In this document: one piece after another, positions 21,944-53,666 of the stretch
How the letters are laid out: each line of letters opens with the position of its first letter
Numbering within the stretch: position 1 is the stretch's first letter
IMG/VR virus record: IMGVR_UViG_3300047667_000790
Coordinates: 1-54,300 of that record
DNA length: 54,300 bases
Origin: a virus
Direction: 5' to 3' (one strand)
Notes under the pieces: model-generated
Databases searched by the model: none
What the model was told of the DNA's origin: nothing
The model's input: only the letters and a program-made list of their open reading frames with translations
Made by a program: the position numbers and the translations under genes

Positions 21944-21951
21944 TATAAATA
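21944..21951 (+). promoter_or_regulatory. T4-type late promoter for terminase large subunit
   Basis: Exact TATAAATA 22 bases before ATG 21974. Confidence 0.65.
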
Positions 21952-21973: not shown

Positions 21974-23515
21974 ATGCGCAGAGGTAACCCCAATCTTAAA
22001 AAAGCCCACCAGACAATGGAGGTTACCTATGAGCAGATAGAAGAGTTAAAGAAGTGTATGCGAGATCCTAAGTACTTCATTAGGAGGTACATATACATAA
22101 GCCACCCGGTACAAGGTCGTATAAAGTTTAATTTATATGATTACCAAGAAGATTTAATAGATTCTTACCATAACAATCGATTTAATGTTGTGTTATCAGC
22201 ACGCCAAACGGGAAAGACTGAAACTTCATGTGCTTACATTCTATGGTACACTATATTTAACTCAGATAAAACCGTACTTGTAGTATCTAAGGATGCGGAT
22301 GCTGCAAAGGAAATCATTAAAAAGATACAGGGTATGTATGAAGAGCTTCCACTATGGCTTAAGCCCGGAATACAAGATGATGACTGGAATAAGCACAATG
22401 CTGCATTTGATAACAATTCAAGAATAGTAGCTAGAACAACCACACCTACTTCTGGTCGTGGTCTAGCTATTTCCCTATTATACTGTGATGAGCTTGCGTT
22501 TGTTAAGCCTTATATTCAAAATGAATTCTGGGATTCAGTATTCCCAACACTGTCTACTGGTGGTTCTTGTATTGTTACATCAACACCAAACGGTGATACA
22601 AACTTGTATGCTACAATATGGCGTGGTGGTGAGGCAGAGACTAATGGCTTTAAAGCATCTAGGATATACTGGGATCAACCGCCGGGACGAGATGAAGAAT
22701 TTAAAGAGGATATGATATCTAAACTTGGGGAAAGGAAGTGGCTTCAGGAATTTGAATGTGAATTCATATCATCTGACAACTCACTGTTCGATACTAGGAT
22801 AATTCAGATAGAACAGAAGCGATTTGAAAATATGAAACCAGCATTTTCAATGAACGGTGAGCAAGATTTCTTTAAACCATTGTCACAAGATATGATATAC
22901 TTAGTTGGTGTTGACCCATCTACCGGCAACGGAAATGATTTCTCAACAATTGAGGTATTTGAATTTCCATCTATGCAACAGGTTATGGAATTCAGGTCAA
23001 ATACCGTAAGTGAGGTTGTATTATACTCACATCTAAAGAAAGTGATAGGGTTCTTGGAAAAGTATTCTAATGATGTTTACTTCAGTGTAGAGTCAAATGG
23101 TGTAGGTAGGGCACTGATAGCATTATACATGCAGGATGAGGCACCACCAATGTACGCACACTTTATGAGTGAAGCTGGTAAGAATAAGATGGGTTACACT
23201 ACCACCAATACGTCTAAAAAAGATTGTGCTATAAGATTTAAGAATATGTTTGAGCGTAGGGAGATGACTATATACTCACAAATCCTGTATAATGAAATGA
23301 AGGCGTATATCCGCAAGGGGGAAGGGTTTGAGGCCCAAACGGGAGCAACTGATGACTGTATATCAGCAGTGTACGTTGTAATGCGTATGCTGGATGAGAT
23401 TGCACTGTATGACCCCAGAGCATATGACAAATTATATAGGTTTTCAGAGCAGGCAGCGGGTGATGAATGGTATACCGAAGACAATAATGCACCAATACCC
23501 GGTGGAATGTTTTAA
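21974..23515 (+). CDS. Terminase large subunit (gp17-like)
   Basis: 513 residues (T4 gp17: 610). ATPase domain: Walker A SARQTGKT (75-82) and Walker B LLYCDELAF; coupling motif region IVTSTPNGD. Nuclease domain: VGVDPSTGNGNDFSTIEVF, SVESNGVG and ATDDCISAVYVV give the RNase H-like acidic residues. It pumps DNA into the prohead and cuts the concatemer. Shorter than T4 gp17 mainly at the N-terminus. Has its own late promoter. Confidence 0.95.
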   Translation: MRRGNPNLKKAHQTMEVTYEQIEELKKCMRDPKYFIRRYIYISHPVQGRIKFNLYDYQEDLIDSYHNNRFNVVLSARQTGKTETSCAYILWYTIFNSDKTVLVVSKDADAAKEIIKKIQGMYEELPLWLKPGIQDDDWNKHNAAFDNNSRIVARTTTPTSGRGLAISLLYCDELAFVKPYIQNEFWDSVFPTLSTGGSCIVTSTPNGDTNLYATIWRGGEAETNGFKASRIYWDQPPGRDEEFKEDMISKLGERKWLQEFECEFISSDNSLFDTRIIQIEQKRFENMKPAFSMNGEQDFFKPLSQDMIYLVGVDPSTGNGNDFSTIEVFEFPSMQQVMEFRSNTVSEVVLYSHLKKVIGFLEKYSNDVYFSVESNGVGRALIALYMQDEAPPMYAHFMSEAGKNKMGYTTTNTSKKDCAIRFKNMFERREMTIYSQILYNEMKAYIRKGEGFEAQTGATDDCISAVYVVMRMLDEIALYDPRAYDKLYRFSEQAAGDEWYTEDNNAPIPGGMF

Positions 23516-23519
23516 GTTT

Positions 23520-23527
23520 GATAAATA
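23520..23527 (+). promoter_or_regulatory. Weak late-promoter-like site (GATAAATA), possibly leaderless
   Basis: GATAAATA ends 5 bases before ATG 23533. With T4 spacing (+1 six bases after the box) the transcript would begin at the A of the ATG. Confidence 0.3.
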
Positions 23528-23532
23528 CAGTA

Positions 23533-24060
23533 ATGTGTGATATAATAATACAAGATAGTACATTGATTGAAGCAACTTTAAGTGATTTGCATAACAACAC
23601 TGTTAGCAATTTTGATACTCCACGACAGACAACTGCCGGTAGAGTACAAGTAACTCAAAAGATTTTCAATGCAATGCCAAGAAATTCTATAGTAGGGGTG
23701 ACCGCTAAGACTCGCTCCAGTGCTAAAGAATACGTAACTCGTATGTTGTTTTCTAACATTGAGTACGTAGAAGAGGAAGGTGTAGACACATCTACATTTA
23801 CTTCTGCTGATGGTACTGACTATGTAGTTGGTGCTATGGGTTATCGAGATAACGATGTTAAGGTTGGATGTAACTGTCTTGACTTTTATTATCGTTTTGC
23901 TGTATGGAATAGCAAAGAGGGTAGTCTGCTGGGAAGCGTACCACCACCCTATGTTAAGAAAACAGATAGCGAACCAGCCAACCCCAATCAAGTGTCGGGG
24001 ATGTGCAAACATCTTATCGCACTGACGGATGAGCTAAAAAGAGAAAGATTCTTAAAGTAA
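23533..24060 (+). CDS. SWIM-type zinc-finger protein
   Basis: 175 residues from ATG 23533; a TTG at 23518 directly after the terminase stop is an alternative. Residues 113-160 contain C113-x-C115 (GCNCLDFYYRFAVW) and MC158KH160, the CxCx(n)CxH zinc pattern of SWIM domains, which bind DNA or proteins. Similar proteins with this motif occur near packaging or head genes of large myoviruses, from memory. No ribosome site is evident. Precise function unknown. Confidence 0.6.
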   Translation: MCDIIIQDSTLIEATLSDLHNNTVSNFDTPRQTTAGRVQVTQKIFNAMPRNSIVGVTAKTRSSAKEYVTRMLFSNIEYVEEEGVDTSTFTSADGTDYVVGAMGYRDNDVKVGCNCLDFYYRFAVWNSKEGSLLGSVPPPYVKKTDSEPANPNQVSGMCKHLIALTDELKRERFLK

Positions 24061-24072
24061 TCATTTAAAGTG

Positions 24073-24100
24073 TTGATAATTATAAGGAGCATCGTATAAT
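24073..24100 (+). promoter_or_regulatory. Sigma70-type promoter of the gp32 gene
   Basis: TTGATA (24073-24078), 16-base spacer, TATAAT (24095-24100). Transcription would start near 24107, giving a leader of about 90 bases that contains the four 10-bp repeats. Confidence 0.7.
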
Positions 24101-24128
24101 GACCCCATTACCGATATCCTTCAAGATA

Positions 24129-24168
24129 TATAAAGTAATATAAAGTAATATAAAGTAATATAAAGTAA
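24129..24168 (+). repeat. Four tandem TATAAAGTAA repeats in the gp32 leader
   Basis: Four exact, contiguous 10-bp copies end 27 bases before the gp32 ATG, the ribosome site (ATAAGGAGAAG) lying in between. In RNA they give an unstructured A/U-rich stretch. In T4, gp32 represses its own translation by cooperative binding to an unstructured A/U-rich leader, so this is a good candidate operator. Confidence 0.7.
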
Positions 24169-24195
24169 ACTAAGAAACCTATAAGGAGAAGTAAG

Positions 24196-25230
24196 ATGGC
24201 AAGACGTTCATTAAAAGATCTACGTGAGCACATTAGTAAATCTGCAAATAATGGCAACAACACAGGTGGGCAATTCTATCCACACTGGAAACTACCAAAG
24301 GATGGCGAAACCAGAATTCGGATCACAGAAGATCCTGATGAAGAGAACCCGTTCATTGCGTACATTGAATACATGGAACACAAACTTGAAGTTGACACTG
24401 ATCGTGCAAACGCTGAAAGTGATTGGATTAGAGTACCATGTATTAAAAACTTGGGTAAAAACCACAACTGTCCACTATGTGAACATTCAAGCAAGCTGTA
24501 TAAGGCAAAAGATGAGGATGCTGGTAAGTACTTTTACCGCGAATTATTTGCTCTTCTTCGTGGTGTTGTTGTAGAAGATGGCCTTGAGTATGCAGAAGGT
24601 GAAGAAACTCAAACGGGTAAAGAGCTAGTATTCAAATTCAGCTACCAGTTGAGCAATGCACTTAAAAGCGAGATGGGAAAGCTAGATGATGACGATATGT
24701 TTTGGGATTTGGAAGAAGGCATAGACTTTATTATCCAAAAGAAAATGGTTAAGGGTAAAGGCGATAAGGAATATGGGAAGTATGACGTTGGTAGCAGCTT
24801 TGCTAGACGACCAAGTGACGTTTCTCAATATAAGGATGCTGTTACTGATCAACCATTGTCGGCTCTTATCCCAGAAATCCCATCATATGATGAGGCAGCT
24901 GCTGCACTAGCTAGACACTTTAAGTTTAAGTCTGGTGGTGCTGGCCAATCATCTGGCGATGACGATGACGATAACTCAACCAGCGAAGACGAATTGATGG
25001 CACAAATCAACCGTAAGCGCCGGGATAAGAAGAAAGTTGTAGAAGAGGAAGCACCCGTGAAGGCTGCTAAATCTAAAGTGGTCGAAGACGAGAAAGATGA
25101 AGAGGATTTTGATGACATCCCTTTTGATAAAGAAGATGCTGATGATTCCGATGACAGCATTTTAGATTCTCTTCGTGACGATGACGATGATGATGACGAT
25201 GATGATATCCTTTCTCAACTGAAAGGGTAA
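24196..25230 (+). CDS. Single-stranded DNA-binding protein (gp32-like)
   Basis: 344 residues (T4 gp32: 301). N-terminal basic LAST-like start (ARRSLKDLREH), an OB-fold core with the zinc site C82...H90-N-C92-P-L-C95 as in T4 gp32, then a long charged linker and a very acidic C-terminus (nine successive Asp followed by ILSQLKG), the segment that in T4 contacts other replisome proteins. The acidic tail is encoded by a GAT/GAC run at 25177-25206 that could slip. Coats single-stranded DNA in replication and recombination. Own sigma70-type promoter and repeat leader. Confidence 0.9.
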   Translation: MARRSLKDLREHISKSANNGNNTGGQFYPHWKLPKDGETRIRITEDPDEENPFIAYIEYMEHKLEVDTDRANAESDWIRVPCIKNLGKNHNCPLCEHSSKLYKAKDEDAGKYFYRELFALLRGVVVEDGLEYAEGEETQTGKELVFKFSYQLSNALKSEMGKLDDDDMFWDLEEGIDFIIQKKMVKGKGDKEYGKYDVGSSFARRPSDVSQYKDAVTDQPLSALIPEIPSYDEAAAALARHFKFKSGGAGQSSGDDDDDNSTSEDELMAQINRKRRDKKKVVEEEAPVKAAKSKVVEDEKDEEDFDDIPFDKEDADDSDDSILDSLRDDDDDDDDDDILSQLKG

Positions 25231-25311: not shown

Positions 25312-26418
25312 ATGTCATCATTTATGGAAAAATATAAAAAGAACTTGGCCAAGCAAGATGGCCTTAATTTAGAACTACTACCCCCAACATATTTCTTAAA
25401 CACTGGCAACTATGCCTTGAATAAGCTTATGACTGGCGACTTTGAAGGTGGAATTCCACAGGGAAGACTGGCATGCTTCTCAGGACATTCTAGCTCTGGT
25501 AAGAGTTTGGTAGCTGCCAGCACCATTGCCCAAATCATCAAGGATGGTGGATATGGTTTTGTTATAGATTCGGAAACCTCTCTGGACTCTGCGTTTATGA
25601 CAAACTGTGGTGTTGATGTTGACAGCCCCAACTATCAGTATATTGGTGTTGATGGAATTCCACAAGCAACTGCACAAGTTAATAACATACTTAAAATGTA
25701 TCGAGAAACAGGTGAAACCACACGTGGTCTTATCGTAGTCGATTCGCTTGATATGTTATTAACTGATACTGAACAGAAGCGATTGGATTCTAAGGGAGAT
25801 ATCGGTGGTGACCAAGGACAACAGGCCAAGCAACTGAAGGCCACACTTAAGACTTGGGTACACTCACTCAACAATCTACCTGTAAGCATCATATGCACTA
25901 AACAGCCATACGTTGAGCAAGACCCAATTAAGGCACTTGAGAACCCATGGAAAATTACGGAATCTTTGAAGTTTGCATTCAGCCAAATCATTATGTTTGA
26001 AAAACTGCAATTCAAAAAAGAAGAGAATGGTAAAAAATCTCATAGGGGATTTACCCTTAAGAGCGTATCATACAAAAACCGTATTGGTCGTGAAAAGCAA
26101 GTTGTTAAGATTGAAATTCCTTTTGATCATGGTGTTGAGCCATTCTCAGGGTTAATTGAGATTGCAACTGAGTTTGGTATCATCAGTAAAAATGGTGGGT
26201 GGTATACACCAGTAGCATTTGAAGGTCCAAAGTTCCAGCAGGGTAAAGCCGAAGGGGATATCGACTTCATGAACGTGTTATTAGAGCAGATTAAATCTGT
26301 CAATAATAAGGACATGGAAGTAAATGCAGCACTTGATGACTACGTAAGTGAATCTGAAAAAGGTGAACCAACACGTAAAGCACGCGCAGCACGCAATGTT
26401 CCACCGGGTGATGAGTAA
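25312..26418 (+). CDS. uvsX: UvsX/RecA-like recombinase
   Basis: 368 residues (T4 UvsX: 390). Walker A GHSSSGKS (58-65), Walker B GLIVVDSLDMLL, a GGDQGQQAKQLK loop and VSIICTKQPYVEQ as in phage RecA-type proteins. Promotes strand exchange for recombination-dependent replication and repair with gp32 and UvsW, both adjacent. Preceded by ATAAGGAGAAT. The next gene starts right after the stop. Confidence 0.92.
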   Translation: MSSFMEKYKKNLAKQDGLNLELLPPTYFLNTGNYALNKLMTGDFEGGIPQGRLACFSGHSSSGKSLVAASTIAQIIKDGGYGFVIDSETSLDSAFMTNCGVDVDSPNYQYIGVDGIPQATAQVNNILKMYRETGETTRGLIVVDSLDMLLTDTEQKRLDSKGDIGGDQGQQAKQLKATLKTWVHSLNNLPVSIICTKQPYVEQDPIKALENPWKITESLKFAFSQIIMFEKLQFKKEENGKKSHRGFTLKSVSYKNRIGREKQVVKIEIPFDHGVEPFSGLIEIATEFGIISKNGGWYTPVAFEGPKFQQGKAEGDIDFMNVLLEQIKSVNNKDMEVNAALDDYVSESEKGEPTRKARAARNVPPGDE

Positions 26419-37445: not shown

Positions 37446-39107
37446 CTATAGTGCTGGTAATTGGTATATGTATGCCTTACCTGACCCATCAGTAACACCA
37501 TCTTCAGTTTCACCCTGTGCACCAACTATTGCATAGTTTCCATCTATTGCCACAGACGATCCGAATTGGTCAGCACCACTAGTACCATGTGCATTTGGAT
37601 TATCTAATGTAAATAATAATGCCCCAGTAGTGACATTAAATATGTATGCCTTACCTGAACTAAAACCATCAACATCATCTTCGTTAGATGCACCAGCTAT
37701 AGCATAATTACCACCTATGGCTACAGTCTGAGCGAAACGGTCACCAGTACTAGTACTGTATGCATTTGGGTTATCTAATGTAAATAATAATGCCCCAGTT
37801 GTAACGTTAAATATGTATGCTTTACCTGAAAGACCACCGGCATCAGCCTCGTTGTATGCACCAACTATTGCATAGTCTCCACTTATTGCAACAACGGATG
37901 CAAAGTAGTCAGTAGCACTAGTACTGTATGCATTTGGATTATCTAATGTAAATAATAATGCCCCAGTCGTGGCATTAAATATGTATGCCTTACCTGAACC
38001 GTTACCACCAGCATCATCTTCGAAAGGTGCACCAGCTATAGCATAATTACCACCTATGGCTACAGTCTGACCGAAACGGTCATCATTACTAGTACTATAT
38101 GCATTTGGATTATCTAATGTAACTAATAATGCCCCAGTTGTGACATTGAATATGTATGCCTTACCACTACTGGTGCCACCAGCATCATCTTCCTTCCATG
38201 CGCTAACAATTGCGGAGTTTCCATCTATTGCTACAGAATATCCGAAACGGTCATCTAAACTTGTACCGAATGGGTTTGGGTTATCTAATGTAAATAATAA
38301 AGCCCCAGTTGCAACATTAAATATGTATGCCTTACCGGAATCATTACCATTAGCATCATTTTCACCCCACGCACCAACTATTGCATAGTTTTCACTTACC
38401 GCAACAGATATCCCGAAGTAATCAGAAGCAGTAGTGCCGAATGAATTTGGGTTGTCAAGTGTATGTAATAGTGCACCGGTTGTAACGTTAAATATGTATG
38501 CCTTACCACTACTGGTGCCACCTGCATCATCTTCTGAATATGCCCCAACTATTGCGTAGTTACCACTTAGAGATGCACTGTTTCCGAAAACGTCTTGAAA
38601 ACCAGTACCGTATGCATTTGGGTTATCTAATGTATGTAATAATAATGGTGCACTGATTGGTGGTGTAATAGATGGTGTAATAGATGGTGTAATAGATGGT
38701 GTAATAGATGGTGTAATAGATGGTGTAATAGATGGTGTTACTGCTGGTGTTACTGCTGGTGTTACTGCTGGTGTTACCGTTACAGAGGGTAAAGATAGAT
38801 AATCCCATACCATAAGATGTGCAATACCGACAGTTGGTGCATCAAAATCTACAGTTATGGTTGATTCATCGGTAAGTGTAATTGACACAAAATCTTTTTT
38901 AGTAATATCTTCACCGTTCTCATCATATATTCGGAGTATTAATGATTTTGATTGCCTACCATGTATTATAACCCAAGAGGCTCTTGGGTATTCTATCTTG
39001 AATCTATATGACCAAAAACCAGCACCAACCAACTCACTCGCGTTGATTGCATGCTTTCCTGTCACCAAGTCGATGTATACTGGAACAATTCTACTGTTAT
39101 TAGTCAT
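37446..39107 (-). CDS. Seven-bladed FG-GAP-like beta-propeller protein
   Basis: 553 residues. Residues about 1-105 form a globular N-terminal domain. About 105-150 is a Thr/Pro linker of 4-residue units (AVTP x3, SITP x6). The rest has seven near-identical blades of about 55 residues, each with LLFTLDNPNAYxTS, DxFGxSVAIxGNYAIVGA, EDDAGG and SGKAYIFNVTTGA. This is the FG-GAP/integrin-alpha-type propeller. Short loops after TS and after AGG vary between blades. A minus-strand late promoter at 39144-39137 points to a virion protein; receptor-binding or decoration is inference. Confidence 0.8.
   Translation of the reverse strand: MTNNSRIVPVYIDLVTGKHAINASELVGAGFWSYRFKIEYPRASWVIIHGRQSKSLILRIYDENGEDITKKDFVSITLTDESTITVDFDAPTVGIAHLMVWDYLSLPSVTVTPAVTPAVTPAVTPSITPSITPSITPSITPSITPSITPPISAPLLLHTLDNPNAYGTGFQDVFGNSASLSGNYAIVGAYSEDDAGGTSSGKAYIFNVTTGALLHTLDNPNSFGTTASDYFGISVAVSENYAIVGAWGENDANGNDSGKAYIFNVATGALLFTLDNPNPFGTSLDDRFGYSVAIDGNSAIVSAWKEDDAGGTSSGKAYIFNVTTGALLVTLDNPNAYSTSNDDRFGQTVAIGGNYAIAGAPFEDDAGGNGSGKAYIFNATTGALLFTLDNPNAYSTSATDYFASVVAISGDYAIVGAYNEADAGGLSGKAYIFNVTTGALLFTLDNPNAYSTSTGDRFAQTVAIGGNYAIAGASNEDDVDGFSSGKAYIFNVTTGALLFTLDNPNAHGTSGADQFGSSVAIDGNYAIVGAQGETEDGVTDGSGKAYIYQLPAL
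38662..38769. repeat. 12-bp minisatellite encoding the propeller linker
   Basis: Six exact contiguous copies of GGTGTAATAGAT (38662-38733) followed by three exact copies of GGTGTTACTGCT (38734-38769) and one diverged copy. In-frame units of 4 codons, so copy-number changes alter linker length without frameshift. Confidence 0.9.
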
Positions 39108-52907: not shown

Positions 52908-52958
52908 TAATATGTAATACCAGTGCATAACACTATAAACAATAACGGAGTACGTTTG

Positions 52959-53666
52959 ATGAATAGTAATAAAAAAGATGTTGGCGAATTATTCATGCTA
53001 GAAAAGCAAGTAAAGTACTATGCACAAACTGTTAATATAACATTACATCACTTCTATATTAACGGGGAAATAGAACACGAAATAGATAAGTACGTTGACA
53101 TGCTTAATGTTATGAAAACATGTGAAGCCCAAGATAAGATTTACATTTACTTGAATACACCGGGTGGGAGCCTAGGAACCACCATTCAAATAATAGCTGC
53201 AATGAACCAATCACAGGCAGAAATAACAACTTTCTTAGAAGGTGATGTTTGTTCGGCAGGAACGATGATATTCTTATCAGGGGATAACTATGTAGTTAAC
53301 GACCATTGTGCATTTATGATCCATAACTGTAGCCATGGTGGGTATGATAAGGGTGCAGCTATTGTATCACAAGTGGATTTCATGAAGACTTATTTCAAAA
53401 AAATGGCTACTAACATATATTCAGGATTCTTAACCGATGATGAAATTACAGATATGCTTGCAGATAAGGATTTCTGGATGGATTCTGATGAAGTAGTAGA
53501 ACGCCTTAACGTGCGTGGTATCGGGGTCGTATTTGATGGCAGGATTGATGACGAGATTGATGAAACGGCATATGAACCTAAACCTAAACCAAAACCTAAG
53601 CCAAAGCCTAAACCAAAAGCTAAGGCTAAAGTTAAGGCTAAAGTTAAGGTAAAAACTAAAGCATGA
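52959..53666 (+). CDS. ClpP-like serine protease with Lys/Pro-rich tail
   Basis: 235 residues. IYIYLNTPGGSLGTT, VCSAGTMIFLSG (nucleophile S99), AFMIHNCSHGG (H122) and the ADKDFWMDSDEVV end (Asp near 169-171) are the ClpP/S14 triad elements. The last 45 residues are a repeat of Lys-Pro then Lys-Ala/Val, unusual for ClpP. ATG 52959, 8 bases after ACGGAG, is preferred to GTG 52923. T4 uses an unrelated S77 prohead protease (gp21); this enzyme might be a prohead protease or act on host proteins. Confidence 0.85.
   Translation: MNSNKKDVGELFMLEKQVKYYAQTVNITLHHFYINGEIEHEIDKYVDMLNVMKTCEAQDKIYIYLNTPGGSLGTTIQIIAAMNQSQAEITTFLEGDVCSAGTMIFLSGDNYVVNDHCAFMIHNCSHGGYDKGAAIVSQVDFMKTYFKKMATNIYSGFLTDDEITDMLADKDFWMDSDEVVERLNVRGIGVVFDGRIDDEIDETAYEPKPKPKPKPKPKPKAKAKVKAKVKVKTKA

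Follow-up and report, generated by a model that had tools for sequence, protein, structure and literature searches.

In a 54,300-nucleotide stretch of viral DNA (IMG/VR record IMGVR_UViG_3300047667_000790, positions 1 to 54,300; hereafter the window), the gene for a gp32-type single-stranded DNA-binding protein is preceded by four exact tandem copies of a 10-nt unit, and this array probably serves as an operator for translational self-repression by gp32. The array is real and looks functional, and sequence comparison supports its reading as a gp32 autoregulation site. Its recurrence at the same place in related phages, with altered letters, suggests that gp32 may coat its own message and so stop its own production.

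The array and its genomic setting

The ATATAAAGTA array is free of errors, and TRF run on the window reported it with a period of 10, 4.1 copies, 100% match and a score of 82. A probe of two TATAAAGTAA units, with up to three mismatches allowed, found a single site in 54.3 kb, the array itself, against a chance expectation of 0.03, and the array in the 75-nt leader surpassed 500/500 dinucleotide shuffles. These three lines of evidence confirm the four exact repeats that a preliminary description had placed at 24129-24168. When the other 21 intergenic leaders of the window were put through the repeat test, 0/21 reached p<=0.05. Degenerate units continue the array towards the gene, the last of which, TATAAGGAGA (24180-24189), matches the array unit by eye at 7 of 10 letters and contains the Shine-Dalgarno sequence. 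The same four copies occur in a near-identical contig, IMGVR_UViG_3300049783_000824, which differs by one SNP over the 9.1 kb compared; an exact-repeat search of viral contigs returned only this contig and an unrelated phage, L004, in another gene context. In L004, two TATAAAGTAA copies and several GTTCACGTAGG repeats occupy a noncoding stretch between divergent genes (1960-2250).

Table 1. Features of the gp32 leader region in the window
Feature	Position	Strand	Basis
Sigma70-type promoter TTGATA-16-TATAAT, 11/12 matches	24073..24100	+	promoter scan and conservation
Predicted 89-nt mRNA leader, almost unstructured	24107..24195	+	start inferred from promoter; folding
Tandem array, four exact TATAAAGTAA units	24128..24168 (unit starts 24129, 24139, 24149, 24159)	+	TRF, sequence, shuffles
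Degenerate extension of the array: ACTAAGAAAC, C, TATAAGGAGA	24169..24189	+	sequence, comparison by eye
Shine-Dalgarno AAGGAG	24183..24188	+	sequence
gp32 single-stranded DNA-binding protein, 344 aa (ATG 24196)	24196..25230	+	profiles, fold

The gene behind the array had been taken for gp32, an identification borne out by Pfam and PHROG, by the 1GPC profile and by fold matches. Although the Pfam gp32 match scores just above the cut-off, the PHROG match is to a single-strand DNA binding protein, the profile match to the T4 gp32 core (1GPC) and the fold matches are clear, and the predicted fold (mean pLDDT 68, a moderate confidence) best resembles RB69 and T4 gp32. By sequence profile and predicted fold, the protein is a diverged true homologue of gp32. 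A search for DNA similarity between the window and cultured phages found none, and comparison was therefore made through the protein, whose nearest cultured relatives are those of Stenotrophomonas phages CM1/RAS14 and Xanthomonas phage XacN1, at ~35% identity. On the 5' side of the array lie a large terminase gene (21974-23515) and an uncharacterised ORF (23518-24060), while gp32 is followed by a gene for a UvsX-like recombinase (25312-26418).

The placement of the array between a sigma70-type promoter and the ribosome site of gp32 was likewise upheld (Table 1). The promoter scan returned 10 sites against 6.5 expected, and is by itself no proof of a promoter. TTGnTAATTATA and the 16-nt spacer are, however, shared by most of ten diverged phages of the clade to which the window belongs; TTGnTAATTATAAg, this spacer and a -10-like hexamer are kept in most of the ten and are visible in RAS14 and XacN1. 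Given this conservation of the promoter among diverged relatives, the array should lie within the gp32 mRNA leader, with the message predicted from the promoter to start near 24107. In those clade members that possess a significant array, it is located downstream of the conserved promoter, and the scan gave no promoter match on the + strand between the window array and the ATG. A leader peptide of 14 codons (ATG 24099-24101 behind AAGGAG, stop inside the array) was considered and rejected: its start is absent in relatives such as L002 and L091, and the ATG overlaps the -10 box, which would put it upstream of that promoter's transcript. Rfam gave no match at E<=1 in 23900-24400.

From its predicted start to the ribosome site, the window leader is A/U-rich and predicted to lack structure; with an MFE of -4.0 kcal/mol (z 0.8) it folds no better than shuffles. 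Such openness extends to gp32 leaders generally, which are more unpaired than GC-matched controls (0.63 versus 0.51, p 3e-13). A simple search for H-type pseudoknots, which recovered the known T4, T2-type and Mosigvirus structures as positive controls, found no candidate in the leaders of the window, L025 or L153. Candidates in L002 (p 0.02), L014 and XacN1, with p ranging from 0.02 to 0.04, are only suggestive because 15 leaders were tested. In place of an array, the gp32 leaders of RAS14 (L009 1840-1905) and XacN1 (L010 1800-1870) contain two hairpins, the first GC-rich and the second a GUAGC hairpin, together with a TACTAAATA common to both phages.

Two further ORFs of the window contain repeats. 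A large ORF on the minus strand (37446-39107) harbours 57-aa repeats, beta-propeller-blade-like by eye (period 171 nt, 37518-38643), as well as 12-bp repeats (38661-38777) that encode a TPSI/TPAV linker; an ORF at 52923-53666, ClpP-type-protease-like by eye, ends in a KPKPKP/KAKVKA tail from 12-bp repeats (53575-53653).

Repeats in related gp32 leaders

A comparison of leaders in relatives had been proposed in the preliminary description, and it revealed short-period arrays at the same place but with changed letters. The clade comprises ten members including the window, and pairwise identity among their gp32 proteins is mostly 39-60%. When a local repeat test was applied to the full predicted leaders, 7/10 reached p<=0.01 (window, L091, L012, L013, L014, L002 and L151), the remainder giving p values of ~0.06 (L025 and L153) and 0.21 (L147). 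The main period is 10 in the window and L151, 9 in L091, 8 in L002 and L025, 16 in L012, 19 in L014 and 20 in L013. The units themselves differ, being TTTAAGATTA in L151 (period 10), TTAGAAGTC/TTAGTAATA in L091 (period 9) and TAAGAACA in L002 (period 8). Nevertheless, a TAAGAA core is present in 8/10 of the leaders, with 18 occurrences against 2.8 expected, and TAAG-like cores are mostly spaced 8-11 nt apart. In L151 the Shine-Dalgarno sequence is, by eye, in register with the 10-nt array. L147 possesses a second, clearer array (1336-1390) of four to five TAAGATCGTAG-like copies at 11-nt spacing, located between the preceding gene and the predicted gp32 promoter, and thus upstream of the latter; the leader of L148 is identical.

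Beyond the clade, the comparison covered 116 gp32 genes, drawn from both cultured phages and viral contigs after redundancy had been removed at 75% protein identity. The 75 nt preceding each start codon were scored for self-similarity without gaps at lags 5-20, with dinucleotide shuffles as the background, and 161 further intergenic leaders taken from these loci served as controls. At p<=0.01 the test was passed by 24/116 gp32 leaders versus 2/161 controls (Fisher 2.5e-8), and at p<=0.05 by 38/116 versus 13/161 (Fisher 1.9e-7); the other 78 of the 116 gave no significant array by this test. Among cultured phages, which were fetched after the idea had been formed, 7/25 were significant at p<=0.05 and 4/25 at p<=0.01, and in the T4-wide set from viral contigs the counts were 18/41 and 8/41. 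Agrobacterium phage Atu_ph07, which is cultured, has CAATTTAGCA-like repeats in its gp32 leader, and Vibrio phage KVP40 also has an array. Pooled autocorrelation of gp32 leaders shows an excess at lags 9, 10 and 11 (Z 5.6, 4.2 and 3.3) that is not seen in the controls and that remains when the window clade is left out. Control leaders peak instead at lags 3 and 6, as coding sequence characteristically does. The periodic segments run from about -40 to -14, ending at the Shine-Dalgarno sequence, and 32/38 come within 20 nt of the start codon. Relatedness among the phages qualifies these counts: with gp32 clustered at 60% identity, 29% of 46 clusters are significant at 0.01; at 45% identity the figure is ~18% of only 12 clusters, with few lineages carrying the excess and p about 0.01-0.07.

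Apart from work on T4, RB69 and RB49, a search restricted to literature outside subscription journals yielded no description of gp32 leaders with repeats at a 9-11 nt period, and as far as that literature goes the spacing is apparently undescribed. Tentatively, gp32 leaders across T4-like phages may share a lattice whose spacing of about 9-11 nt persists even as its sequence changes, with the unit homogenised separately in each phage; in pseudoknot-free lineages, that of the window included, the lattice alone might then provide mRNA specificity, with gp32 and its repeats diverging together.

Alternative explanations

The repeats might do no more than keep the leader open, giving the 30S subunit and ribosomal protein S1 an A-rich, unstructured place to land and allowing high expression of an abundant protein with no repressor involved. 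Unstructured A-rich leaders favour ribosome loading in general, and gp32 leaders are both A-rich and unpaired. However, openness needs neither tandem repeats nor a 9-11 nt period, and the period is missing from other intergenic leaders of the same phages, A/T-rich ones included, which makes this explanation unlikely. Still less probable is an action of the array in DNA, whether as same-face transcription-factor sites, as degenerate late-promoter boxes (TATAAAGT versus TATAAATA) or as an origin. Ten base pairs are about one helical turn, to which the period of the array is close, the unit shares 6/8 letters with the T4 late box, and the L147 array does lie upstream of a promoter. Against this, the window array is downstream of its promoter, the pooled peak falls at 9 rather than 10.5, and the sense strand is biased towards A (A 0.42, T 0.26); in addition, the units of relatives are unlike TATAAATA, and late promoters were rejected as a general explanation on this ground. 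Separately, TATAAATA boxes ~20-30 nt upstream of ORF starts at window positions 21944, 9913, 39137(-) and 46395(-) suggest T4-type late promoters, the total of 11 boxes in the window being not above chance (7.9).

That the array is a neutral product of slippage in an A/T-rich spacer would be consistent with the low complexity of the unit, with the differences in unit between phages and with the fact that perfect repeat arrays are often young. Yet arrays recur at the same place before gp32 in many phages and not before other genes, and the copy number is unchanged in the near-identical contig; we consider neutral slippage very improbable. An equally low probability is given to recognition of the leader by a different phage repressor that binds RNA, for example RegA, whose preferred sites are A/U-rich and contain UAA triplets. 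RB69 RegA selects AAUAAUAAUAAnA (PMC3014915) and the array is rich in UAA, but RegA sites are found at many genes, whereas the arrays described here are special to gp32 leaders.

Probable autoregulation by gp32

The preliminary description had interpreted the array as a gp32 autoregulation site. This interpretation gains from the identity of the gene, the position in the leader, the predicted unstructured A/U-rich RNA adjoining the ribosome site and the arrays in relatives; two of its components, a contrast with T4 in array structure and a match to monomer size, did not hold (see below). gp32 binding at the array, its cooperativity, the ensuing repression and the role of repeat number we infer as follows. 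A message starting near 24107 would carry a leader of 89 nt for which folding predicts hardly any structure. gp32 produced beyond the available single-stranded DNA would bind cooperatively along the U/A-rich repeats, and the resulting filament would run into the repeat-like Shine-Dalgarno sequence and block the ribosome. In the simplest reading, the repetition of preferred sites would strengthen binding and position the filament across the ribosome site, an arrangement that the repeat-like piece at 24180-24189 fits. As no pseudoknot was found in the window, nucleation and affinity probably come from the repeated sites themselves. Counting against an operator are the majority of gp32 leaders without a significant array, the weaker excess under 45% clustering and the L147 array, since a leader operator would not need one upstream of the promoter.

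It has been described as unclear how gp32, a sequence-independent DNA-binding protein, recognises its own message, and autoregulation in pseudoknot-free relatives of T4 has been stated to be an open matter (PMC535899). An array of four perfect copies that lacks a pseudoknot offers a clean natural test, in which number, spacing and unit can be varied separately, and the recurring 9-11 nt spacing could serve to mark gp32 autoregulation in uncultured phages.

Comparison with known gene 32 operators

In T4, gp32 nucleates on a pseudoknot in its own message and extends from there across UUAAA/UAAA repeats as far as the ribosome site, thereby repressing that message (PMC535899, PMC3014915); both the repeats and the pseudoknot are essential for repression (PMC535899). 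The analogy with T4 is incomplete because this essential element, a 28-nt pseudoknot located 5' of the repeats, was not found in the window, a point that the preliminary description did not raise. RB69 (Mosigvirus) also represses gp32 autogenously, through a pseudoknot and an unstructured stretch to about -45 (PMC535899); in contrast to the window it has the pseudoknot, and its operator sequence is unrelated. The gp32 leader of Mosigvirus mobillu gave p 0.009 in the repeat test. RB49, compared by publications alone, resembles the window in that no pseudoknot has been reported, and is described as keeping UUAA/UUAAA units in a leader whose function was never tested (PMC535899), contrary to a second report that no A+U-rich sequence is conserved there (PMC3014915).

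The preliminary description had set the repeats of the window apart from those of T4 both in sequence and in forming a strict tandem array. The former stands, the unit being the 10-nt UAUAAAGUAA rather than the 5-nt UUAAA of T4; the latter is not a difference in kind, since T4 has UUAAA/UAAA repeats (PMC535899), and a tandem array as such in a gp32 leader is therefore not new. The T4 leader itself scores at lag 5 (p 0.002) in the self-similarity test. Nor was the proposed equivalence of one 10-nt repeat to about one gp32 monomer sustained: it should not be assumed because T4 gp32 covers 7 nt of DNA per monomer (PMC7826291), and repeat periods are 5 in T4 and 8-20 in the clade, with the pooled peak at 9. 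What the window shares with the T4/T2 operator is the gp32 gene, an unstructured A/U-rich leader and short repeats that run into the ribosome site; as in the T4-type operator, its repeats lie just upstream of the Shine-Dalgarno sequence, with a unit and period that differ from those of T4.
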